From a virus, in IMG/VR virus record IMGVR_UViG_3300025012_000319, positions 1 through 20,258 of that record: a stretch of 20,258 bases of DNA; one strand, written 5' to 3'. The notes beneath the pieces were generated by a model. That model was not told the origin of the DNA and did not search any database. It saw only the letters and a list, made by a program, of their open reading frames with translations. Positions 7,024 through 20,258 of the stretch are shown here, piece by piece (position 1 is the stretch's first letter; the number at the start of each line of letters is the position of its first letter). The position numbers and the translations under genes are program-made.

Positions 7024-7605
7024 TCAACACGGCTTCTGAATGAATTTTCCGCCCAGCACATTGAAGGGCAGTATTCGCCCCCATGAGGACGTCTCCATGA
7101 CGCACCCGGCTTTCATGTTGTCCGCGTAAGTCATTGGCGAGTCAGGCACCCAAAGCACATAGACCAGATCCCCATCACGATACCGCGTGAAGTCCACCGG
7201 CTGGCAGCCGGTCAGCTCGATGTATCGCGTTTTCTTCTGGCATACGATCACGTCATAGGTCAGATGCAGGTTTGTGATATGCTCGATGCAGTCAATTTTC
7301 TCAGTGTAGGCCACAACCCCGACAGATACATGACAGCCGCACATGCACTCCTGGCACATCTTGCCCCGCTTCTCGGCGCCGCCCTTAGTCACTATCCGTA
7401 CCCTTGATAATCCGAACCCATGCCATGCTTCGATGATTACCTTGCCGTCGGTCCAATGGTCGGAGAGCTGCTTCAACTTCTGGAACTGCATGTTTCGCTC
7501 CAGGTTGTGCAGCATGGTCATGGCCCGGCCGATGTACTTTGAACCGACTGCGAAATCTCCTTCAATATCTTTTCTGGTCGGGATCTTGCGGTAATCGACC
7601 GCCAT
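7024..7605 (-). CDS. Cysteine-rich hypothetical structural protein (193 aa)
   Basis: The start chosen is the ATG overlapping the previous stop (TAATG), giving MAVDYRKIPTRKDIEGDF; a GTG two codons earlier is possible. The protein has a helical N-terminal third (HNLERNMQFQKLKQLSDHW). A dense Cys cluster follows, CQECMCGCH at about residue 84, with more cysteines later and one at the C-terminus (KPC). The cluster could bind a metal or form disulphides. It precedes a large protein that is also Cys-rich at its N-terminus. I recognise no family. Confidence 0.7.
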   Translation of the reverse strand: MAVDYRKIPTRKDIEGDFAVGSKYIGRAMTMLHNLERNMQFQKLKQLSDHWTDGKVIIEAWHGFGLSRVRIVTKGGAEKRGKMCQECMCGCHVSVGVVAYTEKIDCIEHITNLHLTYDVIVCQKKTRYIELTGCQPVDFTRYRDGDLVYVLWVPDSPMTYADNMKAGCVMETSSWGRILPFNVLGGKFIQKPC

Positions 7606-8804
7606 TAGCACACCTGGCCGCGCACATGCGCAAGCACTCCTGAGCAGGAATCGCCGCCGTCAGCGACAACGCCTGATTCCATAAAGAAGCCCAACTCGCC
7701 TTCAACCGCCATCTGCGGCCGTGAATACATAGTAATGCCGGACTCCATGAAGAAGCAGAGTTCGCCAACGGCCCGGGCCGAAATATCCGCCTCCATCTCA
7801 ATGCCGCTGGTCATGCTCAAACCAAGCTGGCCGCCGGCATTCATGGCAATATGGCTCGCCATCTGAATCCCGGACTCCATCTCGAAGCCCAAATCTCCTT
7901 GGACGACAGCGGCATTGCTCGCCGTCATCTGGATGCCGGATTCCATGGAGAACCCGAGATCGCCTTGAATCGTGTTGTTCAGGATGCTGATACCAGACTC
8001 AGCGTAAAACCCGAGATCGCCGCGGACCGCCATGTAAATGTGGCTGGCCATGGTGATTCCAGACTCCGTGGAAAATCCCCAATCGCCCTGGGCCTGCATC
8101 GGAATGGAATCGTCACCGGTGGCGGCGACGGTCACGTTGTTGAGAATTACCCCACCGCCCCATGACCCTTCGCCTTCAGCCTCTACGGGCGCAAGTGTCG
8201 CGCCACCGCCCCATGAGCCTTCCGCCGCCGCCTCAACACTGCCAGCAGTTACGCCACCGGTTCCGCCACCATCGCCAGCAGCAGATACCGCACCGAGCGA
8301 TACGCCGCCGACTCCACCATCTCCACCATATTCCACATGGCTAATTGCAAGGTCTGTTCCGCCCCAGTTATCGACTATCCGGAGGACGAAGTAGCGATAG
8401 GCGGTTGAGTCATCAAGGGCGAAAGTCTCGAACTCTTCTACGTCAGCAGCGGTGTGCTGTGTAAATGTGACAGGGTCTGCCGAGACAAGAGTTAAATCAG
8501 TCGTATCCGCGTAGGTGGTATTTGCAAAGGCTGTCGCTGAATTGGTCCCGTAAACTCGAACTGTTTTTGCACCGTCATCAGTCCATGCCCCGTGAACATG
8601 CCCGTTACTGATTTTCAGCTCATTTATTTTGCTGGCAACGCCAATATCGTAATTGAACTTCTGACTCCCGGTTATTCCGCTGTCTGCATACCACCTATCC
8701 GTCAAGACCTTTGTCGGATCAACGCCCTCGATTTCGCCTGAAAAAGATGACGTATATTTGACGTAAGTGCTTGTAAAAGCAGGTGCGTAATGCGGAGTAG
8801 CCAT
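7605..8804 (-). CDS. Fibre-like protein: discoidin-like domain plus 22-residue repeats
   Basis: The ATG follows the previous TAA directly. The product is 399 residues. Residues 1-160 look like a discoidin (F5/8 type C) galactose-binding domain, with RWYADSG near the start of the fold, FNYDIGVASKINELKI, and a closing VLRIVDNWGG then AISHVEYGG. Such domains often bind glycans. Residues 160-230 are a Gly/Ala-rich linker with two EGSWGGG motifs. Residues 240-380 contain seven repeats. The C-terminus has three Cys in the last 35 residues. This architecture suggests a tail or head fibre contacting the host surface. The binding target is unknown. Confidence 0.7.
   Translation of the reverse strand: MATPHYAPAFTSTYVKYTSSFSGEIEGVDPTKVLTDRWYADSGITGSQKFNYDIGVASKINELKISNGHVHGAWTDDGAKTVRVYGTNSATAFANTTYADTTDLTLVSADPVTFTQHTAADVEEFETFALDDSTAYRYFVLRIVDNWGGTDLAISHVEYGGDGGVGGVSLGAVSAAGDGGGTGGVTAGSVEAAAEGSWGGGATLAPVEAEGEGSWGGGVILNNVTVAATGDDSIPMQAQGDWGFSTESGITMASHIYMAVRGDLGFYAESGISILNNTIQGDLGFSMESGIQMTASNAAVVQGDLGFEMESGIQMASHIAMNAGGQLGLSMTSGIEMEADISARAVGELCFFMESGITMYSRPQMAVEGELGFFMESGVVADGGDSCSGVLAHVRGQVC
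7665..8087 (-). repeat. Seven in-frame protein repeats, period about 22 residues
   Basis: Units begin at residues 240, 262, 281, 303, 325, 347 and 369 of the fibre-like protein, with consensus G[DE]LGF.MESGI followed by a variable segment. The second unit is 19 residues long; the others are 22. The repeats are protein-level: DNA copies differ throughout, so unequal recombination is not recent. The pattern fits a repetitive beta-solenoid or trimeric fibre shaft. Confidence 0.8.
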
Positions 8805-9605
8805 TTACTGAACCGGAACTGTTATCGTGAACGAATCGATGGTCTTGGTATTTCCGGTCACAACCGAAGTGCTCATATTCAGGTCAGATCCGGATGCGGC
8901 CACGTCGAAGTCGAACCGGATAAGGGCCTCCCCCGCGTCCGCCCCGGTCGTGTAATCATTGGCGTAGAACCGGCCCCAGGTGATCGTCCCGGTATCAAGT
9001 CCGGCGTCGCTCCATACCTGCGCGACATCCTTGGAGACAACACCGTCCACCACCGCATCGAACAGGAGCCCGTTCGTATCGGTCCCGCCGGCAAACGCCC
9101 CGGAGCTTTCAGAGATGAGCAGGAGAAGCGTCCCCGCTTCTGCCGTTTCTGGAGTGGCCGGCCGCGCTCCGGAGTACAAGGCCATGACCCCGTATTTCAA
9201 CAGGTCCGCGATGGACTGCCCGCGGTGCGAAACAAGCGCCGACGCCCCGGCGGTAGCTGCAATCTCAGCGGTAAGCGAGGCAGTTGCCACGCCAATAGTT
9301 CCGGCCGCCACTGTCAAGGCTTCATAAGTGCCATCGTTGGTTCCGGAAGTGGTGACAACCGTAACCAGATCACCGACAGAGAACCCGGCAAGGCCGTTCC
9401 CCGAGTCGGTTATTGAGTCGTTACCCGCGCCGCCGTCAGCGAAGGCGATGGTGGTAATGGTGCCGACTGTATCCTGCGCGGTAGCCTTACCTGCGGCCAG
9501 GGCGTCAACCATTGCCTTTGAGAGCTTGACCGCGGCCCCGGCATTGCCAGGAATCAGCAGTGCAAGCAGTGCAAGAGCAAGTCCAATTTTCTTGAATACC
9601 TTCAT
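8805..9605 (-). CDS. Beta-rich structural-type protein, paralogue B, with signal peptide
   Basis: This 266-residue paralogue of the previous gene carries an added N-terminal signal peptide: a basic start (MKVFKK), a hydrophobic core (about residues 7-18, IGLALALLALLI) and a likely cleavage site after Ala24 (NAGA|AV). The start is firm, with AAGGAGG six bases before the ATG. The mature part keeps the paralogue's landmarks (SGNGLAGF, TNDGTYEALTVAAG, LYSGARP, ending SFTITVPVQ). A Sec signal is unusual on a phage structural protein: it could send the protein to the periplasm or cell surface, or the domain may have been recruited for another use. Function not recognised. Confidence 0.78.
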   Translation of the reverse strand: MKVFKKIGLALALLALLIPGNAGAAVKLSKAMVDALAAGKATAQDTVGTITTIAFADGGAGNDSITDSGNGLAGFSVGDLVTVVTTSGTNDGTYEALTVAAGTIGVATASLTAEIAATAGASALVSHRGQSIADLLKYGVMALYSGARPATPETAEAGTLLLLISESSGAFAGGTDTNGLLFDAVVDGVVSKDVAQVWSDAGLDTGTITWGRFYANDYTTGADAGEALIRFDFDVAASGSDLNMSTSVVTGNTKTIDSFTITVPVQ

Positions 9606-9618
9606 AGAAACCTCCTTA

Positions 9619-10371
9619 TCAGGTCAACGGAAGAGTGATTGAGAAACTGTTGATATCCACCGAGATCCCGGAGGTGATCGTGGTCCCGCCCGGCATCCAG
9701 ATTTCGGCGTTGCTCTCGATGGTGGAGATCCTGCCGTCCATGCGCACCGCTGAGGTCGAAGCCCCCGTTACAACCGTGTTGGCATGGAGCCTGCACCATG
9801 CAGAACTCAGCGTCGCCAATCCCGTTCCGGACAGCAGCATTGCTGCCCCGGTCGCTGGGTCAAGCATCCTCTCCACGGTTCGATCCGACACCTGCCGGAG
9901 GTTGATGCCGTATTCAGGAGATCCCGAGACGAAGGTTCCGCCAGCCCGTGAGATGATGGCCAGCAGCGTGCCGTTCTCGATCTGGTCGGCATCGGTCGGC
10001 CTGGAGCCGGAATAGATGTACAGGACGGAATTTCGCATGATGTCGCAGAACGAACCGCCTGCGAGGATGGAGAGGACTACAGCATCGCCAGCAACTTCTG
10101 TTGCCAGTGATCCCGCGGGGATTTCAACCGCGCCCGCAGCTACGGTCTTGACCAGATAAACGCCGTCATTGCTGGTGGATCCTTCGACGGAAATCCAGTA
10201 GTAGGGATAATCGGCAAAGACTGCCAGGCCGTTGCCTGAATCAAGAATCTGATCGTTGCCGCCTGCCCCAGTTCCGTCGCCAAAGCTGATGGTGGCCGCT
10301 GCCAGTTGTACGGGGATTGATGGGGTAGCATCGGCCTGCGCGTTAAGCAAGCCCGTTGATGGGTTCCACAT
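9619..10371 (-). CDS. Beta-rich structural protein, paralogue A
   Basis: This 250-residue protein begins MWNPSTGLLNAQADATPSIP, with TCAGGAGGC just upstream. It is beta-rich and Gly/Ala/Thr-rich and related to the following gene. Shared landmarks are SGNGLA, TSNDG.Y (SGTNDG in the other), YSG.RP, and the final FSITLPLT versus FTITVPVQ. It has no signal peptide. The family is not recognised. Position after the nozzle-like gene and the repetitive beta pattern suggest a virion surface or tail component. Confidence 0.75.
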   Translation of the reverse strand: MWNPSTGLLNAQADATPSIPVQLAAATISFGDGTGAGGNDQILDSGNGLAVFADYPYYWISVEGSTSNDGVYLVKTVAAGAVEIPAGSLATEVAGDAVVLSILAGGSFCDIMRNSVLYIYSGSRPTDADQIENGTLLAIISRAGGTFVSGSPEYGINLRQVSDRTVERMLDPATGAAMLLSGTGLATLSSAWCRLHANTVVTGASTSAVRMDGRISTIESNAEIWMPGGTTITSGISVDINSFSITLPLT

Positions 10372-10469
10372 GATATGCCTCCTGAAGAAATCTCGTTTCT
10401 CCCAAGAGGCCGACCTGGCGTGTTGAGTGGATGTCTATTTGCCGGACCTGGACAGGGCGGGCGGAATAG

Positions 10470-10562
10470 TTATTTTTGTGCTTCTTTCAATGCCTGTTCC
10501 GCCAGGGCGATGAACTGCTTCGCCACGCGGATCAATATTTTCAGTATGGTTTCAGCGGTCAT
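10470..10562 (-). CDS. 30-residue mini-protein
   Basis: This tiny gene starts at an ATG overlapping the previous stop (ATGA), exactly like the neighbouring coupled genes. It encodes a single amphipathic, Lys/Ala/Leu-rich helix (MTAETILKILIRVAKQF, then IALAEQALKEAQK) and ends in TAA. Without it, 187 bases would be untranslated in an otherwise packed operon. The helix could sit at a membrane or bind a partner helix. Function unknown. The remaining 98 bases before the next gene hold only that gene's ribosome site. Confidence 0.55.
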   Translation of the reverse strand: MTAETILKILIRVAKQFIALAEQALKEAQK

Positions 10563-11938
10563 CCGTTCACCAGTCCATGAGATCTTGCGACATACTCAAC
10601 GTCTATCGTATCAATGCTGAAATCGCCGCCCAGCAAGTTTTCAACCTTCACGGTCCAGTACCGGCCGGAAAGGTTGCTCAGCACTTTAATCCGCCGTCTT
10701 GATTGCGTCGTTTTGGTTGGGCTCAGAATTTTAGTTGCGCTGCAACCTTCGTCAGTCGTGACCGTAACCTGCAGGTCAAGCTCCGCTTCAAGCCCGAAAT
10801 ACAGATACCAAAGCCGTTTTGGATGCGAGTCCCCGAAGTCCGTCAGAACAGGAGCAAATGATGCTGAAATCGCCGTGCCGTTATCCGAATCGCCGCCGAT
10901 CTTGTACAGGCCAGCGGCCGACGCGGCCAGGTAGTAATCGCCAAACCGGCAGTACGAATTGAAATTGTGATTGGTGTACTGCGTTGCCGCCTTCTCCGTC
11001 AGCGGCCCGCGCTCAATGCTGGTGCAGAGCGTCACGCAATCCTGATATGAGCCGAGCAGGTACGGCCCCATGAGCAAGGTTGCCCCTGAACCAGCATCAT
11101 GCCCGGTCAATGACACCTTGCTTTCGGTCATGTTGACCATTGCCCCATCTGGCATCCCGACACATACGCCGGTCTTCGATAACCAGAAGGAGCATAGCCC
11201 TGGCGACTGCAGCCCGAGCCGTAGCCCTTCCGCAAGATCGTGACATGCGGAGTTGGCCACCGCTGGGTAATTGGCTATCTGGTCGCACCGCGGACGCTCG
11301 CCGGCCGTGTTGATGAAGTATGTTTTCTTGGCCGTTGAGACAAAAGCCCCGGACTTGACCGGCGCACCCATGATGACTGTGGAGTCAAGCCGGAAATGCC
11401 TTGTCCCGAGCTTGAACAGACCTGGCTCAGTCACTTCCGAGTAGAACACGGTATCGCCAACAGCAACGAACGCCCGCCCGCCGCAGAACCAAGTGAGTGA
11501 ACCGACAGGCGCGGCATAATACGGCTCCAGTTCGTCAGGATGTTCAAACCCTTTCTTCGACCAGGCGGATGATACGCTGTTTTCGATAACCCCGTTCTGC
11601 GTGCTGTTGGTGTAGTTGACCCGCTTCCCGGTATCGGAAAAGGAAATGCGTCCGCCGGACAGCCCTGAGCGCACCCCGAGCAAAGACAAGTCCCCTTTGA
11701 CCTGATAGAGCAGCCCATCCTTGCCGACGAAGCAATCTCCCCCGTTGCAGAACAGGGAATGAAAGTTCCCGGCCTGGAGCAGGCTAAAACCTTGCCGCCT
11801 GCTCACCCTGCCGTTGCTCTCAATGTTGATATCTGTGGCCAACTGGAGATCAGATACCCCGGTCTCCGGATCAAACTTTATCCGGGCCGGATCGTCTACC
11901 GTGTTGAGGCCGCTGGCGCCGGTGAAGATCCGTTTCAA
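10559..11938 (-). CDS. Tail nozzle / DNA stabilisation-like protein (P22 gp10-like)
   Basis: The start chosen is TTG at 11936-11938, overlapping the adaptor stop (TTGA) with GAGG seven bases upstream; another TTG at 11959 would add seven residues. The product is 459 residues, nearly all beta-strand in character, with repeated short blade-like segments (NGGDCFVGKDGLLYQV; GGRAFVAVGDTVFYSEV; FGDYYLAASAAGLYKIGG). This fits a propeller-like hub, as in P22 gp10-type proteins that close the head below the adaptor. The N-terminus (FTGASGLNTVDDPARIKFDPETG) has the typical early loop of these proteins, and the order portal, capsid, adaptor, nozzle also fits. No enzyme motif seen. Confidence 0.6.
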   Translation of the reverse strand: MKRIFTGASGLNTVDDPARIKFDPETGVSDLQLATDINIESNGRVSRRQGFSLLQAGNFHSLFCNGGDCFVGKDGLLYQVKGDLSLLGVRSGLSGGRISFSDTGKRVNYTNSTQNGVIENSVSSAWSKKGFEHPDELEPYYAAPVGSLTWFCGGRAFVAVGDTVFYSEVTEPGLFKLGTRHFRLDSTVIMGAPVKSGAFVSTAKKTYFINTAGERPRCDQIANYPAVANSACHDLAEGLRLGLQSPGLCSFWLSKTGVCVGMPDGAMVNMTESKVSLTGHDAGSGATLLMGPYLLGSYQDCVTLCTSIERGPLTEKAATQYTNHNFNSYCRFGDYYLAASAAGLYKIGGDSDNGTAISASFAPVLTDFGDSHPKRLWYLYFGLEAELDLQVTVTTDEGCSATKILSPTKTTQSRRRIKVLSNLSGRYWTVKVENLLGGDFSIDTIDVEYVARSHGLVNG

Positions 11939-12618
11939 TTCCAGTCCTCGGTGATACAATCCGCATCATCACGGATGAATGACGGCTCGCCATCCGCGGC
12001 GCCGATAAACCGGGAGAGGTCGGTCATCGCCGCCTGAAACTCGCCCTTGTAATAATCGGTATTGACCTTTGAACCCTCAACTCCGTCCTCTTTGTCCTCA
12101 TACCACCTGGCCAGAACATAGTTGACCAGAAGCCGTTCATGGAGATGCGCTGGCAGACCATCGGGCGTGCTCGCGTCAAGAGCCATCGCCACCGGCAACC
12201 GATGAAACCAGAGCGTAATCGTCTGCGCAGCCGTAGGAATAGGATTGTAATAGAGCGTGTTCCCTTTGAGGCAGACCGCCGAGACAGCCGAACCGGTACG
12301 GGTCAGATTGTCGTAATCGTCCATCATCTTAATGAACGAATCGTAAACCGTTATTTTGTTTCCGCTCGCATCCGTTACCCGGAATAATCCCCGGTGATAG
12401 GTTGCCGGCATGGATACATTGTGATTGGTGTCCGTGTCAACCGTGGCGCTTGACAGCAGATCAGGCAACGGCGCAAGAGTGGGCAGGCCCCAGTTACGAG
12501 GCCCGCCCCCTGCGATGTCAAGAACACCCCTGTTCAGCGATGCAAGGATATCGGTCGAGGAGAAGCTGGAGTCATCCGCCTTTCCCGATATTGCTGCTAC
12601 CAGTTCGCCCTTGTTCAT
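11935..12618 (-). CDS. Head-tail adaptor-like protein
   Basis: This 227-residue protein resembles the adaptor (connector) proteins that sit under the portal in podoviruses. The N-terminal helices (MNKGELVAAISGK, then STDILASLNRGVLDIAG), a central beta region (NTLYYNPIPTAAQTITLWF) and the C-terminal helical pair (HERLLVNYVLARWYED, then YYKGEFQAAMTDLSRFIG) match the layout of these proteins. The YVLARWYE helix followed by a long amphipathic helix is typical. It follows the decoration genes with a 3-base gap and overlaps the nozzle-like gene at its end. Assignment is by pattern, so the exact family is uncertain. Confidence 0.65.
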   Translation of the reverse strand: MNKGELVAAISGKADDSSFSSTDILASLNRGVLDIAGGGPRNWGLPTLAPLPDLLSSATVDTDTNHNVSMPATYHRGLFRVTDASGNKITVYDSFIKMMDDYDNLTRTGSAVSAVCLKGNTLYYNPIPTAAQTITLWFHRLPVAMALDASTPDGLPAHLHERLLVNYVLARWYEDKEDGVEGSKVNTDYYKGEFQAAMTDLSRFIGAADGEPSFIRDDADCITEDWN

Positions 12619-12621
12619 GGC

Positions 12622-12969
12622 TTACCGGCAGTACGGGTCAACGTCAATGTAGCCGCTGAAGGTCGCCGCCACGGTGCAATCAGAGAATGTCAAGCAGAGG
12701 ACATCCCCGGCGTTCACGGTTTTGGTGCCATACGTTGCATCTGCCGCATAGGTCCCGGTCGCGCCGGCAGCGATGGTTGATCCAAACGTCAAGGTGCCTA
12801 TTGTCTGGCTGTTTTCGCTGAGAACGATAGTCTCTGCGTCGCCCGGGTCAACAGAGCACGCAGCCTGCATTCCCAGTACCTTGCAATCAAACGGTGCCGG
12901 GATGTAATAGACAAGCGAGCTCCCGTTTGCGCTCAAAAGCTGGAAATCAATACGATATTGTCCTGCCAT
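12622..12969 (-). CDS. Small structural protein, copy 2 (putative capsid decoration)
   Basis: This paralogue of the preceding gene is also 115 residues and begins MAGQYRIDFQ. AAGGAG lies 8 bases before the ATG. The two proteins match most strongly at SENSQ.IG.LT, at residues 68-90 (identical) and at GYID.DPYCR. It has extra cysteines (Cys29, Cys38, Cys92, Cys98) that copy 1 lacks. Codons for the identical block differ at many third positions, so this is an old duplication under protein-level selection and not a recent copy or assembly artefact. The next gene starts 3 bases after the stop. Confidence 0.75.
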   Translation of the reverse strand: MAGQYRIDFQLLSANGSSLVYYIPAPFDCKVLGMQAACSVDPGDAETIVLSENSQTIGTLTFGSTIAAGATGTYAADATYGTKTVNAGDVLCLTFSDCTVAATFSGYIDVDPYCR

Positions 12970-12981
12970 TTTGGTTCTCCT

Positions 12982-13329
12982 TTATCTGCAATACGGGTCA
13001 AAGTCGATGTACCCGCAATAGGTTGAGGCCGCCGTAAGCTGGGTGATGACAACCTGGATAACGTCGCCGGCATTTACCGTCTTCGTTCCATAAGTCGCGT
13101 CAGCCGCATACGTTCCGGTTGCACCGGCAGTGGCGCCGGTTACATAGGTAAGAACGCCGATGTCCTGGCTATTCTCGGAAAGGGTGATGGTCTCAACCCC
13201 GGTATGATCCCCGGAGTTTGACGCCTGCACCCCCAATACCTTGAGGTCAACAGGGGCGACGATATAAAAAGTCGCGGCGCCACCGGTTGAGCCGACAAGG
13301 CAAAAATCAAGTCTGTACTGTCCTGCCAT
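12982..13329 (-). CDS. Small structural protein, copy 1 (putative capsid decoration)
   Basis: This 115-residue, beta-rich, Thr/Ala/Gly-rich protein is encoded just after the capsid gene, a usual place for head decoration proteins. The start has GGAGGA 8 bases upstream. It is a paralogue of the next gene: same length, same opening MAGQYR, same ending DPYCR, and identical residues 68-90. The segment ETITLSENSQDIGVLTY and the conserved GDV strand suggest a jelly-roll-like or similar beta sandwich. No database family is recognised, and the decoration role is inferred from position, size and duplication. Confidence 0.75.
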   Translation of the reverse strand: MAGQYRLDFCLVGSTGGAATFYIVAPVDLKVLGVQASNSGDHTGVETITLSENSQDIGVLTYVTGATAGATGTYAADATYGTKTVNAGDVIQVVITQLTAASTYCGYIDFDPYCR

Positions 13330-13346
13330 TGTGGTTCCTCCATTAA

Positions 13347-13369
13347 GGGGGAGGGCTATCCCCTCCCCC
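13347..13369 (-). terminator. Strong GC hairpin after the capsid gene
   Basis: A perfect 9-bp stem GGGGGAGGG/CCCTCCCCC closes a 5-base loop, 15 bases after the capsid stop and 18 bases before the next start. On the transcribed minus strand only TT follows, so it is a weak intrinsic terminator at best. It is well placed to act as an attenuator or RNA stabiliser that sets the amount of capsid message relative to downstream genes. Confidence 0.5.
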
Positions 13370-13383
13370 TGTCCTTGTCGGGG

Positions 13384-14321
13384 TTATGCCGGTTCGGTCA
13401 CGCCAGTGTAGCGGGCATGGGCCTTGCGGTGATCGGTCACAAGCTGGCCACTCCACCGGGTGTTTGCGGTCAGGGTGTCCGGGGTCAGCCGGTCCTTCTC
13501 CCAACGGGCTTGGTGAAGTTGTAGTTCTTGTGGGTCATGATCTTCAGGTGGCGTAGGTTCAGCGCATCCACCACGCCGGAGGTCTGATTGTCATCACCGA
13601 CAACCGGGGCGCCTTCGTGCAGGATGTTGGCGAAACCGGCCTCAACCAGCTTGGCATCACTGAACCGCTGCTGGACCTGCAGGACGCGGGTATAGCCATC
13701 CTTCAGGGTGTTGGTGGTCACGACCAGGTTCGGGGCGGCGGCGGCGGACTGCCCGACACGCGCCAGGGCGAAGAGGTTCTGCATCACCTTGAAGGAAATG
13801 GCAACCGCGTTGGCGGAACTGTTCGCCGCCCACAGTGCCATATCGTCTTGGGCGATCTCGCCGTAGGCCGTAGCGGTTACGGTGCTGAACATGTTTCCCA
13901 ATCCGAGAATTGAATCATCATCAGCAGCAGAGGCATAGACATGGGCTCCCATGTTGTCGCGGATGGTTTTCTCGATGTTACGCATCTTAGCCATAACCAG
14001 GTAAACCATGGCCGCTTCGCCTTCGTTCTCCCGCTGGTCTTCCAGGTCGATGGTGTTGCTGGCATACTCACCAGCCCACCGGAACCTGGCCGCGTTGATG
14101 ATATCGACCTTGGCCGCGTTGATGGTCGTGGTCTTGCCGTAGCTGCCACCGTTTGCCTTGGCGTGCTCCAGGAAGACACGGATAGACCGGCCGCCGTCAA
14201 CCAGATCAGATCCCTTGACCAGGTTCATCTCCATGCCACCATTGCCCATCAGCTTGTAGAGCAGGATGTTTTCGGTGAAATAGATATCGCTGGTTCGCTT
14301 TTCCCAATAATCATTTGTTGC
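13384..14321 (-). CDS. Major capsid protein, exon 2 (main body, with a -1 frame break near the C-terminus)
   Basis: This exon encodes most of the capsid protein, which builds the icosahedral shell. It opens with ATNDYWEKRTSDIYF and continues ENILLYKLMGNGG; no good start codon precedes this, consistent with splicing to exon 1. The body has the length and composition of a coat protein, with residues such as GRSIRVFLEH, DDSILGLGNMF and LKIMTHKNYNF. The original frame stops at 13485 after an odd RRTG. Shifting -1 at about 13503 gives 39 more credible residues beginning WEKDRLTPDTLTANTRWSG and ending RYTGVTEPA with TAA at 13384-13386. Spliced and frame-corrected, the protein is 322 residues. The break may be an assembly error, a real mutation or recoding. 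A strong hairpin follows the gene. Confidence 0.85.
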
Positions 14322-15371
14322 CAGTTTTGTTATCGTGAAGGAATTTAACCTTCACTTCTGCGCCTTTATTTATACGCGCAGCTCAGACTATATCATCCCA
14401 CTGATTCTATGGGCGGTGCGCTCGTGTCGGTTCATAGCCATAGCGTTTTGCTTCAGGCCGTATCCGTTAGTCGTTGGAGCTTCCGGGGCGTTTCCATCCC
14501 GGCTTGCCTGCTGATTACCCTGTCGGGCTTCCCAGCAATTCACACCGTTTGCAAAGTGAATTTCCCTGTGGCATTTTTTACAAAGAGTTACCCCGCGAGC
14601 ATTTTTATGCGCCCCTATGATAAGGTCGGCCAGTTCTTCCTTATTGCTTTCGACAGAAAGCCCAGGATTATCAGTTAGAACCCTATCACGAATATCGCTC
14701 ATCCTGTCCAGATGGTGCACATGCAAGTTTTGCTTAGAGCCGCATTTTGTGCACACATAGCCATCCCTTGCGAGAATATCCCGCTTCCAAGAACGCCACA
14801 GCTTGTTGGCTATGGTTGTGTAGAAGTTCGTTTTCCCGCCCTTCCACCACATATGCGACTCGCCGGCTCTTGACTTCAAAGAGCACACATTGCATCGCTT
14901 CTGGTTTCTTTTTTTGATGACTTTTCCGCAATCTTGACAGGTATGCGGGGAATCATACTTCCTTTGAGCTGCGCCTATCTTTGCCCTGACTTCTGCCGTA
15001 AATACGACAGGAGGGGCATTTTCGCCTTTGACTCGCTTCAGGTCTTCAGGATTCATCCTGAGACCTTTCCGCATAGCGAAGCCGTGAATCGTATTCCGCT
15101 TCTTCCCCATGATTCTGCTCAATGCAACAGAACCCTTGGTTGAATACCATTCGCAGATATACGCCTGCTCATCGGTAGTTAAATGCTCGTGTTTTGCAGT
15201 AATGGACAACCTTTCCGCCGCATGTTTCACGCTCTCTGCGGTACGGCCAAGAGCTTCAGCGCAGAACTTAATTGCGTCCCCGCTGTAGTTCTTTTTCAAG
15301 AACTGCTCTTCGTCTGCTGTCCATTTCTTTTTTACCATGGAATCACCATTTCACTTTGGGCCTACAAATTA
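14322..15371 (-). ncRNA. Group I self-splicing intron in the capsid gene
   Basis: Read on the minus strand, all core elements appear in order. P1: exon UUGAGGCU pairs with AGGCCCAA (15356-15363), with one bulged A and the conserved U-G at the splice site. P4/P5: AATTGCTGGGAA (14529-14540), then the CCC/GGG hairpin and GTAATCAGCAGG. P6: CCGGG/CCCGG. P7 5' strand: TCCAACGACTA (14468-14478), whose GACTA pairs with TAGTC in GATATAGTCTG (14384-14394). P9-type hairpins: CTGCGC/GCGCAG (14358-14381) and GTGAAGG/CCTTCAC (14335-14355). The intron ends in G (CTG at 14322-14324), as required. ACAAAU in exon 2 can pair with AUUUGU in the P1 loop (P10-like). P3 and P8 were not resolved by hand, and the 3' site could be one base different. 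Confidence 0.88.
14388..15338 (-). CDS. HNH homing endonuclease inside the intron
   Basis: This 316-residue protein would cut intronless capsid alleles and so spread the intron. Residues 5-46 (WTADEEQFLKKNY, then LGRTAESVKHAAERL) and 53-95 look like two helix-turn-helix/SANT-type DNA-binding units. Residues 134-152 hold a zinc knuckle pair (CQDC, CNVC), followed by the MWWKGG motif common in HNH homing enzymes. The HNH domain spans about 185-261: RDGYVCTKCG (Cys196, Cys199), VHHL with His208-His209, Asn246, then CKKCHREIH with Cys253, Cys256, His257 and His261. The start is 33 bases into the intron with a weak GGTGA ribosome site. Residues after about 263 are low-complexity and polar because this DNA is also the ribozyme core; the TAG stop is part of the P7 3' strand. 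Catalytic residues look intact. Confidence 0.88.
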   Translation of the reverse strand: MVKKKWTADEEQFLKKNYSGDAIKFCAEALGRTAESVKHAAERLSITAKHEHLTTDEQAYICEWYSTKGSVALSRIMGKKRNTIHGFAMRKGLRMNPEDLKRVKGENAPPVVFTAEVRAKIGAAQRKYDSPHTCQDCGKVIKKRNQKRCNVCSLKSRAGESHMWWKGGKTNFYTTIANKLWRSWKRDILARDGYVCTKCGSKQNLHVHHLDRMSDIRDRVLTDNPGLSVESNKEELADLIIGAHKNARGVTLCKKCHREIHFANGVNCWEARQGNQQASRDGNAPEAPTTNGYGLKQNAMAMNRHERTAHRISGMI

Positions 15372-15401
15372 AGCCTCAAGCTGCGTCAAACTAAGTGCCA
15401 T
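15372..15401 (-). CDS. Major capsid protein, exon 1 (10 codons)
   Basis: The ribosome site AAGGAG lies 8 bases before ATG and is followed by ten codons reading MALSLTQLEA, after which the frame meets TAA. This would be a useless peptide by itself. The sequence directly after it carries group I intron features, and 1,050 bases later an exon-like frame resumes with ATNDYWEKRTSDIYF. Joining the two gives a sensible capsid N-terminus. The last exon base is the U of GCU. It can pair with a G of the internal guide (AGGCCCAA, 15356-15363), as group I 5' splice sites require. Position after the scaffold fits the capsid gene. Confidence 0.82.
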
Positions 15402-15413
15402 TTTCGTTACTCC

Positions 15414-16184
15414 TTATGTTTGCACACCCCTTACCGCAGCGAGCATGGATTCTCGAAGCTCGCGCGGGTCGTTCGTGCGCTTGTTGTTGGTTTGCTGGAT
15501 TGAATTTCCAGGTTTCGTTAATACTTTTTCGGTCGCCTCGGACCCCTTGCGGATTCGCTCGGACTCTGCCGTGGCCTGCCGCATGGCTTCCTGAGCTTTG
15601 TAGGCGTAGTACGCGGAGAACTTGTCGTGCATCGGGTTCTGTTTCATGATTTCATCCAAGGCCCCGGAGTTGACTACCTCCTGGTAATCCTTGTGCTCGC
15701 CATAAAACTTTTCAACCACCGTCTGCATGTCACGGTCGGCCAGGGTGTTGTTGAACTCACCCCGGAGCCGTTCGATTTCCACCTGTGCCTGTTTTTGGGT
15801 CATCCCCGCAACCTGCTGGGCGGTAATCTGGTTGCTCTGCTTCATCGCTTCGGCAAACGTGATGCCCCCTTCCTCGTACTGTTTCGCCAAAGAGTTCAGC
15901 ATCCCGTCATAGTCAACGGGCGCCTCCTCTTTTTTGGCCGGTGCTGGACTCTCAGCGCGTTGGCTTAACATCTGCTCGTAAGCAGCGGCCTTGCCGCGCA
16001 GCTCGCCAAGTTCACCGGACCTTTTGCCCTCCATCTTCTGCAGTTCGGTGTACGCAGTCTCCAACTCTTCGGGCGACTTGTACTTGCCTGCGAAAAGGCG
16101 GGCTTCCGCCTGCGCTGGTGTTTCAACAGCCGTTTCCTTTTCAGGGGGCAGCGAGCCTGCAGGGATAATGTTCTCGTCTTTCAT
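15414..16184 (-). CDS. Capsid scaffolding protein
   Basis: This 256-residue, highly charged, helical protein lies immediately before the capsid gene, the standard place for a scaffold. Scaffolds guide procapsid assembly and are then released or degraded. The segment LFAGKYKSPEELETAYTELQ (about residues 30-50) is the recurring motif near the N-terminus of many podovirus scaffolds. A Gln/Glu/Ala-rich helical body follows. The C-terminus is basic and polar (NNKRTNDPRELRESML), as expected for the coat-binding end. The ATG chosen (16182-16184) has GGAGGA six bases upstream. A TTG two codons earlier is in frame but overlaps the spacer. The stop TAA is itself part of the capsid ribosome site TAAGGAG. 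Confidence 0.85.
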   Translation of the reverse strand: MKDENIIPAGSLPPEKETAVETPAQAEARLFAGKYKSPEELETAYTELQKMEGKRSGELGELRGKAAAYEQMLSQRAESPAPAKKEEAPVDYDGMLNSLAKQYEEGGITFAEAMKQSNQITAQQVAGMTQKQAQVEIERLRGEFNNTLADRDMQTVVEKFYGEHKDYQEVVNSGALDEIMKQNPMHDKFSAYYAYKAQEAMRQATAESERIRKGSEATEKVLTKPGNSIQQTNNKRTNDPRELRESMLAAVRGVQT

Positions 16185-16233
16185 CTCCAATCCTCCAGCG
16201 GGGGGCGCACACCGTATCCCGCCATTTACTTTG

Positions 16234-16252
16234 CCGCGCTTCAGGGGCGCGG
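16234..16252 (-). other. Short GC-rich hairpin between FmdB-type gene and scaffold gene
   Basis: The minus-strand RNA can form CCGCGC / GCGCGG around a 7-base loop. No run of T follows, so it is not a convincing intrinsic terminator. It could slow transcription or protect the scaffold/capsid message, but may be chance in GC-rich DNA. The rest of the 75-base gap holds the scaffold ribosome site (GGAGGA, 6 bases before the ATG). Confidence 0.3.
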
Positions 16253-16259
16253 AATCCCT

Positions 16260-16529
16260 TTACCCGGCTTCAACTATTCCGTTGTCGCGCAGGTATCGTT
16301 TATAAGCCACTCGGTCAGTTATCGGGCGCACATCGGTTCCCTTTGGGAGCAGATTGGCGGTTGCCGAAGATAACCACGGTGGCTCATCTCTTTGTATATT
16401 CGCTGAAATAATCCTCTCAGCACTTGCCCCGCACTCAGGGCATATCTCAAACTGCTTGCGGTCATCGATCTTCCGAATGACGGCGAATGTCTCGTTGCAG
16501 CACCCGCAAAAATGTTCATACAGTGGCAT
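16260..16529 (-). CDS. Second FmdB-type zinc-ribbon protein (89 aa)
   Basis: The start chosen gives MPLYEHFCGCC, the typical FmdB opening. An upstream start at 16568 would add 13 unrelated residues that overlap the previous gene further. Cys8/Cys11 and Cys30/Cys33 (CPEC) form the zinc ribbon, and the intervening IRKIDDRKQFEICPEC is characteristic. Residues 45-89 are an extra tail (PPWLSS, then RVAYKRYLRDNGI) absent from the first copy. The two zinc-ribbon proteins are only distantly alike outside the knuckles. It is the last gene before the scaffold, 75 bases away. Confidence 0.82.
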   Translation of the reverse strand: MPLYEHFCGCCNETFAVIRKIDDRKQFEICPECGASAERIISANIQRDEPPWLSSATANLLPKGTDVRPITDRVAYKRYLRDNGIVEAG

Positions 16530-16773
16530 ATTGCGTCCCGTACCAGCCTGGATCTCCGAACTCTTCAACCTCTACGCTGTCAATCGTCCCGTCCTTGATA
16601 ACCTTGTACCGCATCCCTGGTTTAAGGTTGCAAAGCACAGCCATCCCGCTTCCAGTGATGAACCGGCCATCAGAAGGTCGGAAGTCATTATTCACCCTGA
16701 CAATATCTCCTCGCTTGAATACTTGAAGCGTCACCTCGACCTCCACCCCTCGGACCATACGTGTCGCCCCCAT
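16516..16773 (-). CDS. Small beta-rich hypothetical protein (85 aa)
   Basis: The family is not recognised. The sequence alternates hydrophobic and polar residues (VEVEVTLQVFKRGDIVRV, then MAVLCNLKPGMRYKVI). This predicts a small beta barrel, and the phrase FKRGDIVRVNND is reminiscent of SH3-like folds. The start shares one base with the previous stop, and the next FmdB-type gene begins 14 bases before this gene ends. It sits between two zinc-ribbon genes, so it is probably translated as part of the same coupled set. Function unknown. Confidence 0.7.
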   Translation of the reverse strand: MGATRMVRGVEVEVTLQVFKRGDIVRVNNDFRPSDGRFITGSGMAVLCNLKPGMRYKVIKDGTIDSVEVEEFGDPGWYGTQYATV

Positions 16774-16958
16774 CAGAACTTGCTCCTCTCATACCCGCCT
16801 TTGCACCGGCCCTGAGGGAACATACTTCCGACCTTCGGCATTGCCGGCTTGCACATCCCGCCGCACTCTGGGCATTTGACATGCTTCGGCTTGGCGGTCA
16901 TCTTGCAGATGTGCTCAACCGTTTCCTGGCATTCTTTGCAGAAGTATTCGTAGGTCAT
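16773..16958 (-). CDS. FmdB-type zinc-ribbon protein (61 aa)
   Basis: The start chosen is the ATG that overlaps the previous stop (ATGA). It gives the hallmark FmdB opening MTYEYFCKEC, with an aromatic-rich first strand then CxxC. Longer upstream starts would add an unrelated leader. Cys7/Cys10 and Cys29/Cys32 (CPEC) should bind one zinc ion, with GG following the second knuckle as in the family. FmdB-like proteins are small putative regulators found across bacteria and in many phage late operons. Their biochemical role is unknown. The C-terminus is short and basic (GRCKGGYERSKF). The stop shares one base with the next start (TGATG). Confidence 0.82.
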   Translation of the reverse strand: MTYEYFCKECQETVEHICKMTAKPKHVKCPECGGMCKPAMPKVGSMFPQGRCKGGYERSKF

Positions 16959-17920
16959 GGCAACTTTCGCCCATCCTCGCCAGACATTGTGCCGTTGGCA
17001 TGTATCGTGGCATAGCACCGGCCATCGCCCAATTTCCTCTCAACAGCACAAACTCGGTCATCCATTCTCAAGAACCACTCTTGTATTTGGGCAAATCTTC
17101 CTTTTGCTTTCCTCTGCTCCTTCTCAACGGCTTTAATCGCATCCGGATGTACATCTTTTCGCGGGTACATAAAATCAATCCAATCCCCTGCGGTACTTGC
17201 TCCCGTCGCACAGCAACGGCCGCCCACCTTATCCTCCAGCTTTATGACTCGTTCGTTAATCCTCTCGAGCATGCCGTTCAGCCCGTTTTTATCTGTCTCC
17301 AGCGCATCAAGCCGTGCGTTCAACTTCTCTATTTTTTCTAGCATATAAAGGTAATCGTTTTGGCTGGCTTTCGGCTCTTCGGTGTAGTGGTATTCATCCT
17401 CGCCATCGTAGGAATGCTCCCGTGAAGAGCTCTCGCCAATGCTGGCGCTCATGCCAGTAAGCAATGAGCTTGTCCTGAGGTTATCGTTGATTTCGTTCAT
17501 GGCTTTGGCAAGTTCTTCACGGTATTTCCCGACTTGCTCCTGGGTAGCCCCGTACTTTTCTGCCAAACTTTCATCACGGGTTTCGCTTCCGGCAGCGTAA
17601 ATCCCTCCGCCGAGATCAACCAAGCCGTCCTTCTCTTTTGAAAGCAGCGAAAGGACGACATCCGCTTTCCCTTTAGACTCCCCGCTTAGTGACGTTCCCG
17701 TCGTGATGCAGCGAAGAAGACCCATTATTTCACCAAACATTGCGTCTGATAACTGAATCATTATTTCCTCCTCCCTTTTCCTTTTCGCCCGCACCCCGAT
17801 GAAGCCCCTCTCAACAAGAGCATCGAGCATCGCTTTCGCTCCTGCCCTCCAAAACTCAAGCCCGGAAATGGTATCCTTTTCATCTTCTGGGAACTCGTTA
17901 AGCCAATCGTCAAACGTCAT
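16955..17920 (-). CDS. Coiled-coil protein of unknown function, with a possible second internal start
   Basis: This 321-residue protein has no family I recognise. Residues 1-53 form a short helical, charged domain (LEFWRAGAKAMLDALVERG). Residue 54 is a second ATG (17759-17761) directly preceded by GGGAGGAGGAAATA, the strongest ribosome site nearby, so a 268-residue shorter product is likely as well or instead. Residues 115-150 and 188-232 have heptad-like leucine patterns (LEKIEKLNARLDALE). A motif is repeated: residues 224-239 (RVIKLEDKVGGRCCAT) resemble 289-304 (RVCAVERKLGDGRCYAT), each at the end of a helix. The full-length start overlaps the portal stop (ATGA), and the stop overlaps the next start. 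Its position between portal and scaffold suggests a head-assembly role, but nothing in the sequence proves it. Confidence 0.75.
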   Translation of the reverse strand: MTFDDWLNEFPEDEKDTISGLEFWRAGAKAMLDALVERGFIGVRAKRKREEEIMIQLSDAMFGEIMGLLRCITTGTSLSGESKGKADVVLSLLSKEKDGLVDLGGGIYAAGSETRDESLAEKYGATQEQVGKYREELAKAMNEINDNLRTSSLLTGMSASIGESSSREHSYDGEDEYHYTEEPKASQNDYLYMLEKIEKLNARLDALETDKNGLNGMLERINERVIKLEDKVGGRCCATGASTAGDWIDFMYPRKDVHPDAIKAVEKEQRKAKGRFAQIQEWFLRMDDRVCAVERKLGDGRCYATIHANGTMSGEDGRKLP

Positions 17921-19803
17921 TCCACTTCCCCCTGATAAGCCACCGGAACCCCAGGCTGAGGCTGCGCGCTTATCGGGCTATCCTGCGGCCCATTGCCAGG
18001 GCCGCCCTGCGGCTGCATCAGCACCGCCAATAGCTCTTGCGCCTGGTCCTCCGGGAATCCAGCCTGAATCAATACCTGGATGGCCTGCTCAAGCTGCTTC
18101 TCACCCATCCTTTCGATAATCTGCTTATGGCCCGGGAAGTTCAGCGTTTCGAGCAAAGCCTGCTGGTCAATCGCGCTCTTTCCAAACAGTTCAACAGCCT
18201 GCTCTTGGCGCTGCAATTCGGTCTTGTGAATCGTGCTGCCGGCCTCGACCATGTAAGCAAACTTTCGCCCCAGGTATTCGACACCCCGGAACGGCACGGC
18301 CTCGCCCTCGACATCTACCAGTCCGGCGTCATGCCCATGGTTCTGCCACATGCTGATAGCGCAGCTTCCGCGCTGGCTCACCATGTAATCAATCGCGTTG
18401 ATTTTGTGCTGGATCAGGACTTGATTGCGCTCCTGCAGGGCCACAATGGCACTCGCCGCCCGGACGCCTGGAGGGTTTGCCCCGCGGTCGGCATCCTGGA
18501 TTGCGTATACCCGGTCAAACAGGCCCATGAGCATGTCAAGCACTTGGAACATCTGCCCGTTCATCGGCGGCATGGGGACAACGCGAATCCCCGCTGCCGC
18601 TTCCGCTGTTTCCGGGAACAGAACAAGGCCTGGCTCGCTGCTCAGATTGTTTTTAGTGATTCCGGACTTCGGTGGGATAACCAGTATCCCGGTCATCGAA
18701 CGCATGAAATACTTGATGATCCGGGAAACAATCTCATCAATCTTAAAAATCAGGTCTGCCGTCTGGTCTGCTGCCGAGAATCCCCAGATTGACGTGGTAT
18801 CGTCGTAGCTGTTCGCCTTGTAGAATGGGAGCCGGTCGAACAGGTAACAGGTCTTGACCAGTTCTTCGTTCAGCTCTGGGTTTATCGAAGGGTTCGCAAG
18901 GTCGGCCAGGAGCAGTTGCCCTTCATTCGTCACGGTGATTACCCGAATCCCGCCCGGGTATTTCAGCTTCTCAACCTCAACCTCGCCCATTATCGGTTTG
19001 CCTTCCGGGTCAACTCCTATTTCCTTTGTTTCCCACACCTTGATCTTTGTCGGATCTCTTACCCATACCTCTACGGCCAGCGCCCGGTTGTCCCGGTATT
19101 CAGTCCCGGCTTTGTCAAGCGTGTTCAAAACCACCTTGCCCTGAACGGTATAATCTCCGGCTCTGACTGTCGGTGCGTATTCCTCCCGGTCCTCGCCCAG
19201 AATGGAGTAAACATCACTCGGCTCCACATCCTCAACGCCGTATTTTGCTTCCAGCGCCTCGCAGCTATCCGGGTAAGCATGGCAGAAATAGGGCATATCC
19301 GCCCCGATGTCCTCATAATATCCAGGCGCAGGGAAGCAAGCGAACGGATCGAGCACGATAATGCCGGGCTGCTTCCGCTTGCTGTCCCAGTACGCCTTTT
19401 CAAACGTGATACCGTATTTCTCACTCTTCAGGGTCGTGGTCCGCAACTTTGGCTGTTGCGCTGAATCCTCCCACCATTTTCGGAGCATGGCGGTAAGCGT
19501 CTTGTCGGCGCTGTCCCCTATCCCGTCCAGGTCAATACACTCGGCAATCGGTTTTCTGCTGGTGATATTGGCAACCGTCCGCTGCACATTGCTAAAAAAC
19601 AGGTTGACGCTGATCGTGCTCTTTTTCTTCTTCTGGCCCCAGTGGTCCCCGCGGTAGAGCATGTAATTCCGCTTTGCCGTATCTGGCCATTTCAACCGGT
19701 CCTTCTCGTCCCTGGCGTTCTCGAACAAACCCCACGCCCACTTTGCCACGTCTTTGTGGCCAGCGGGCGGCGGATTGATCAATGACCACTTCTTGTCAGC
19801 CAT
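17917..19803 (-). CDS. Portal protein (P22-like / podovirus type)
   Basis: At 628 residues this is in the size range of podovirus portals. The dodecameric portal forms the DNA entry channel at one capsid vertex and docks the terminase. The N-terminus has the helical, Trp-rich start usual for these proteins (YMLYRGDHWG, then SVNLFFSNVQRTVANI), which leads into the wing domain. Around residues 345-470, segments such as IIKYFMRSMTGILVIPP and a helix containing MLMGLFDRVYAIQDADRG are followed by APPGVR-like and ALQERNQ motifs, which fit the stem and crown. The C-terminal ~40 residues are rich in Gln, Pro and Gly. The start ATG overlaps the zinc-ribbon gene and the stop overlaps the next start (ATGA). 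The next genes downstream include scaffold and capsid, as expected for a head operon. Confidence 0.88.
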   Translation of the reverse strand: MADKKWSLINPPPAGHKDVAKWAWGLFENARDEKDRLKWPDTAKRNYMLYRGDHWGQKKKKSTISVNLFFSNVQRTVANITSRKPIAECIDLDGIGDSADKTLTAMLRKWWEDSAQQPKLRTTTLKSEKYGITFEKAYWDSKRKQPGIIVLDPFACFPAPGYYEDIGADMPYFCHAYPDSCEALEAKYGVEDVEPSDVYSILGEDREEYAPTVRAGDYTVQGKVVLNTLDKAGTEYRDNRALAVEVWVRDPTKIKVWETKEIGVDPEGKPIMGEVEVEKLKYPGGIRVITVTNEGQLLLADLANPSINPELNEELVKTCYLFDRLPFYKANSYDDTTSIWGFSAADQTADLIFKIDEIVSRIIKYFMRSMTGILVIPPKSGITKNNLSSEPGLVLFPETAEAAAGIRVVPMPPMNGQMFQVLDMLMGLFDRVYAIQDADRGANPPGVRAASAIVALQERNQVLIQHKINAIDYMVSQRGSCAISMWQNHGHDAGLVDVEGEAVPFRGVEYLGRKFAYMVEAGSTIHKTELQRQEQAVELFGKSAIDQQALLETLNFPGHKQIIERMGEKQLEQAIQVLIQAGFPEDQAQELLAVLMQPQGGPGNGPQDSPISAQPQPGVPVAYQGEVE

Positions 19804-20170
19804 TCACGGCCCCCTTACGCCTGCCGCCCTTGCTCTTTGCCCGAAACACTTCATGCTCGCCAGTGACGTGGCCGGCCTGGAATATCTGGCTGACGCTTAT
19901 CGGTGCAGTCTCACGCGCTTTGATCTTCGGGAATCCTGAACCATTTCCGTACAGTGTCCCGCATCCAGGGCATTCCAGCGCACCGTACACAGAATCCTCG
20001 TTCTCCGGGAAACTTGACCATCCGTATCCGCGCCATGGCTGCTTCATCTTGAAATTGTAGCCCTTCGCCGGCTGCTTCGGGTCGTACCCGGCCCGTGTCT
20101 CATGGAAACTCTGCCCGCAGCCGTCGCAGATCACATCATAGATTATCGTCGGGCTCCCGGGGAAACTCAT
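19796..20170 (-). CDS. Small zinc-ribbon protein upstream of portal
   Basis: This 124-residue protein has two CxxC knuckles, Cys15/Cys18 (CDGC) and Cys67/Cys70 (CPGC). This is the layout of a zinc ribbon with an unusually long insert. The insert is rich in Tyr, Trp and Lys. The C-terminus is basic (KSKGGRRKG), so it might bind nucleic acid. Its ATG overlaps the stop of the preceding gene (ATGA), and its own stop lies inside the first codons of the portal gene (8-base overlap). It is therefore embedded in the packaging/portal operon. I do not recognise a named family. A DNA-packaging accessory role is only inferred from position. Confidence 0.8.
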   Translation of the reverse strand: MSFPGSPTIIYDVICDGCGQSFHETRAGYDPKQPAKGYNFKMKQPWRGYGWSSFPENEDSVYGALECPGCGTLYGNGSGFPKIKARETAPISVSQIFQAGHVTGEHEVFRAKSKGGRRKGAVNG

Positions 20171-20258
20171 TGCTTACCTCCGAACATTTCGCGGAATCGC
20201 AGGTTGCGGGTAAGGATTTCTCCCGGCAGCGGCTTTTCCTCTGCATCGTCAAACGCGC
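20167..20258 (-). CDS. C-terminal end of a late phage gene, possibly terminase large subunit (partial)
   Basis: Only the last 30 or so codons are inside the window. The frame is open from the right edge and ends ...REMFGGKQ followed by TGA. The stop overlaps the start of the next gene in an ATGA arrangement, so the two are probably translationally coupled. The fragment carries no diagnostic motif. The suggestion of terminase large subunit rests only on position: in many tailed phages this gene lies just upstream of the portal, which begins about 360 bases further on. It could equally be another small morphogenesis gene. Confidence 0.5.
   Translation of the reverse strand, partial: AFDDAEEKPLPGEILTRNLRFREMFGGKQ

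Follow-up and report, generated by a model that had tools for sequence, protein, structure and literature searches.

Group I introns are common in phage genes (PMC8541194, PMC12363816), with examples in terL and polymerase of KASIA (PMC8541194) and 2,513 introns recorded in the Jug phages (PMC12363816). The capsid gene is among the genes they interrupt. Mycobacteriophage LittleE carries a probable group I intron of ~820 nt in its major capsid gene, with splicing proven by RT-PCR and N-terminal sequencing, and lactococcal Tuc2009, likened to the present case by description only, likewise has a group I intron in its capsid gene (PMC3706429). The LittleE intron resembles the one described below in its similar size, in the U at its 5' splice site and the G at its end, in its homing endonuclease gene and in the existence of intronless relatives (PMC3706429). 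Unlike the endonuclease frame described here, that of LittleE lies on the opposite strand, its product being called LAGLIDADG-like in the text and HNH in a legend (PMC3706429).

The window, by which we mean the whole stretch of 20,258 nucleotides of viral DNA that was analysed, very probably contains a mobile group I intron, likely of subgroup IA, which interrupts a tailed phage's major capsid gene in phase 0, with codon 10 before it and codon 11 after it. The anatomy of the sequence, the homology of both exons and the intronless relatives are observed directly. A sequence-only reading of this DNA had already placed a group I intron after the tenth capsid codon, which now agrees with an RF00028 match, a paired core and a gapless homologue junction, and had remarked that introns in phage genes are known, which extends to capsid genes (PMC3706429). 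Capsid-gene group I introns being known already from LittleE and Tuc2009, what is uncommon here is, first, the ten-codon first exon and, second, the endonuclease frame that runs across the ribozyme core. The placement so near the capsid start codon is the chief unusual trait, and a limited literature search found no published description of a capsid-gene insertion after ten codons.

On the minus strand, the capsid start reads TAAGGAGTAACGAAA-ATG from 15401, with AAGGAG upstream, and the frame encodes MALSLTQLEA before it meets TAA at 15371. A capsid frame lacking a start codon resumes at 14321 with ATNDYWEKRT. The interval between them, 15371-14322, is exactly 1,050 nt, is preceded by U and ends in G (G14322). 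The start with its ribosome site, the early stop, the startless frame 1,050 bases further on and the terminal G are all as the sequence-only reading had given them. The features of the locus are collected in Table 1.

Table 1. Exons, intron, intron-encoded frame and paired elements of the interrupted capsid gene, with the evidence for each
Feature	Coordinates	Strand	Description	Evidence
Exon 1, major capsid gene	15372..15401	-	ATG to GCT, ten codons, MALSLTQLEA	Sequence; alignment to >30 intronless N-termini
Group I intron	14322..15371	-	1,050 nt; U precedes 5' site; terminal G	RF00028, 39.4 bits; helix check
Exon 2, major capsid gene	13485..14321	-	278 codons in window	NF033394, PHROG 9953
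Intron ORF	14388..15338	-	316 aa, HNH homing-endonuclease-like	PHROG HNH families
P1	15354..15380	-	Exon GGCU + intron UA (15375-15370) / UAGGCC (15364-15359)	
P3 5' strand	14541..14547	-	CGGUGUG	Base-by-base check
P4, P5	14509..14537	-	P4 14537-14532 / 14514-14509; P5 14528-14525 / 14520-14517	RF00028, inner-core fold, helix check
P6, P6a	14478..14508	-	P6 14508-14506 / 14480-14478; P6a 14502-14498 / 14487-14483	RF00028, inner-core fold, helix check
P7 5' strand	14468..14472	-	GACUA	RF00028, helix check
P7.1, P7.2	14428..14466	-	P7.1 14466-14464 / 14430-14428; P7.2 14459-14456 / 14439-14436	Inner-core fold, helix check
P3 3' strand	14414..14420	-	CGCACCG	Base-by-base check
P8	14397..14413	-	CCCAU / GUGGG	Inner-core fold, helix check
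P7 3' strand	14386..14390	-	UAGUC	RF00028, helix check
P9, P9.1	14335..14381	-	P9 14381-14376 / 14363-14358; P9.1 14355-14349 / 14341-14335	231-nt fold, helix check
Intron 3' end	14322..14324	-	P9.0 CU (pairs with AG 14383-14382), then terminal G	Helix check

Exon 2 encodes a phage major capsid protein. It scores 124.8 bits with the NCBIfam model capsid_maj_Podo (NF033394), whose cut-off is 80, and joins that profile at position 9; it also matches the major head protein family PHROG 9953, entering at position 15. It is a member or relative of the NF033394 family and the capsid of Methanosarcina virus MetMV, of which the relatives examined are without the intron. In more than 30 relatives, 38-61% identical, the capsid gene is uninterrupted, the contiguous form being found in >30 viral contigs, several of them near-duplicates of each other, and in four genome contigs. 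The N-termini of these proteins follow a MALxLxxLxA-xTxDY-like pattern, as in MALTLDELNA-ITLDYWERGT (contig L003) and MALSLSQIQA-ATDDYVEKRS (contig L013), and align without a gap at the predicted junction MALSLTQLEA-ATNDYW. With the intron taken out, the frame of a conserved capsid gene is continuous again, and the spliced product MALSLTQLEA-ATNDYWEKRT, predicted before any homologue had been consulted, accords with its intronless counterparts. Because the closest of these is only ~61% identical at the protein level, the gain of the intron is undatable.

Several observations concern the surroundings of this gene. At ~13504 on the minus strand, near its 3' end, the capsid frame departs by a shift from that of L010, a near-identical contig, and stops early in the window, while L010 and the relatives continue for ~40 residues past that point; the shift is either a real mutation or an error of sequencing or assembly. 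The capsid gene is followed directly by two adjacent, similar proteins of 115 aa (12982-13329 and 12622-12969; MAGQYR.DF..., with TGTYAADATYGTKTVNAGDV in common), which are a tandem duplication and possibly decoration proteins; neither has a PHROG match. Between the portal and capsid genes are two small FmdB-like zinc ribbon proteins, one at 16773-17018, matched by TIGR02605, and one at 16260-16568, likened to it by eye only. Finally, the protein encoded at 7605-8804 contains several repeats of the GDLGFxMESGI type.

The group I model RF00028 matches 14595-14374 on the minus strand from end to end (model positions 1-253) with 39.4 bits, an E-value of 3e-8 in a 1.3 kb stretch and of 1.1e-10 on the whole record. 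The match is seen at a permissive threshold: its score does not reach 50, the curated gathering cut-off, which is why a default Rfam scan lists nothing. With RF00028 applied at E <= 0.001 to 26 records, the 25 other records of capsid relatives gave no match and the sister contig L010 alone did, which speaks for specificity. A group I model had been expected to hit the minus strand here and does so in the right place, albeit under the cut-off. Base by base, P1, P3, P4, P5, P6, P6a, P7, P7.1, P7.2, P8, P9.0, P9 and P9.1 pair with zero mismatches, so that the P3-P8 core with its P7 pseudoknot is present. The helices named from the letters alone, namely P7 (14472-14468 with 14390-14386), P4-P6 and the two P9 hairpins, are among them, as is the U-G pair of P1 at the 5' splice site (U15372 opposite G15362, the wobble position being obtained by counting). 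A possible P10 (UUUGU/ACAAA) is, by inspection, weak and displaced by three exon bases.

Without guidance, free-energy folding of 231 nt (14552-14322) recovered the nested core helices (z = -3.08, with one of 200 shuffles as stable), and the inner core of 173 nt taken alone gave z = -1.45; folding energy therefore supports the fold and does not decide it. The two copies of the intron are identical and thus offer no covariation with which to check the fold. Extra helices between the P7 5' strand and the P3 3' strand, that is P7.1 and P7.2, are typical of subgroup IA. Both pair here and appear in the unaided fold, and by this anatomy the intron probably belongs to subgroup IA. The phage IA2 introns (T4 td, Twort and others) possess P7.1/P7.2, a U-G splice site, a terminal G and an intron ORF, and share these with the present intron, a likeness in which subgroup is judged by anatomy only; set against them, the ORF described here has its start downstream of P1 but ahead of P3 and extends across the core. 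The probable IA assignment fits the reported share of IA2 among viral group I introns, which exceeds one half (PMC11835236).

The precise splice sites admit one variant of this explanation, in which both lie one base downstream (after U15371 and G14321) and residue 11 is Ser rather than Ala. By inspection these sites also keep the frame, with a U preceding the intron and a G closing it. We consider them very unlikely, since U15371 faces A in P1 whereas U15372 faces G in the usual wobble, since residue 11 in the relatives is A, V, I or T and never S, and since P9.0 fits beside G14322.

The intron ORF contains an HNH motif and matches PHROG HNH families with E-values from 4.5e-12 at best to 1e-3; the Pfam HNH match is weak (9.1 bits, under the cut-off) and an NCBIfam search returned nothing. 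Its product is most likely a homing endonuclease. The HNH part ends just upstream of P3, and the last ~52 codons cross the ribozyme core P3-P8, the stop UAG lying inside the P7 3' strand; a frame that spans the core in this manner is an uncommon feature. Neither DNA relatives of the intron nor protein relatives of the ORF (at 1e-5) were found in 50,697 phage records. Among the viral contigs, relatives of the intron or its ORF are limited to the sister contig and two 27% matches, and this scarcity rules out covariation analysis.

The sister contig L010 is nearly identical to the window, carries an intron of identical sequence in the same place, the sole relative to do so, and has an intact exon 2. 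The near-identity extends over ~12000-19500, some 7 kb around the intron. Blocks at 9500-12000 and 19500-20258 differ, which suggests recombination between related phages. An argument for homing from this comparison was rejected, as divergence begins only far outside the intron.

Other readings of the locus fare poorly. It is highly improbable that a free-standing HNH gene has been inserted without a working intron, leaving the capsid gene broken or translated from a start inside it, for instance ATG 14249. A mechanical list of ORFs does give a 254-aa capsid from that ATG, the capsid frame of the window is also shifted at ~13504, and the Rfam score is under its cut-off; yet a group I core with all its helices intact and paired adjoins the homology-defined junction exactly, an internal start would drop residues 1-34 of the spliced protein, which are conserved in relatives, and L010 retains the intron together with an intact exon 2. 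Even harder to credit is an intron that was formerly active and has since lost the ability to splice, this contig holding a decaying copy. The frame shift in exon 2 would agree with such decay, but all helices are intact and the HNH frame remains open; L010 lacks the shift, which amounts to one base and is likelier to be a sequencing or assembly error. An intein is rejected by the stop codons between exon 1 and the intron ORF, and ribosome bypassing by a gap that is too long and by the presence of a ribozyme core.

In the explanation that we favour, a mobile group I intron, three activities are inferences: splicing, cutting by the endonuclease, and homing. Once transcribed, the intron would fold into the P3-P9 ribozyme core, to whose catalytic site P1 would deliver the last part of exon 1. 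Exogenous guanosine would then cut after U15372, and the freed exon 1 would attack after G14322 to yield MALSLTQLEA-ATNDYWEKRT. The intron-encoded HNH protein would most likely cut intronless capsid alleles at the insertion site, and repair of the cut allele would copy the intron in.

The shortness of exon 1, at 30 nt, and the stop codon with which the intron begins may have a further, regulatory consequence. By geometry, a ribosome that initiates or terminates on the unspliced RNA must disturb P1, and competition between translation and splicing is therefore to be expected. We tentatively propose, as a possibility we rate rather unlikely in its full form, that a ribosome on unspliced exon 1 covers or melts P1, competing with splicing, and, once released at the stop, can restart 30 nt further on at the endonuclease ATG. 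If this were true, the output of capsid and endonuclease alike would be governed by a race between ribosome and ribozyme. For competition of this kind, the very short exon 1 provides a clean natural test.
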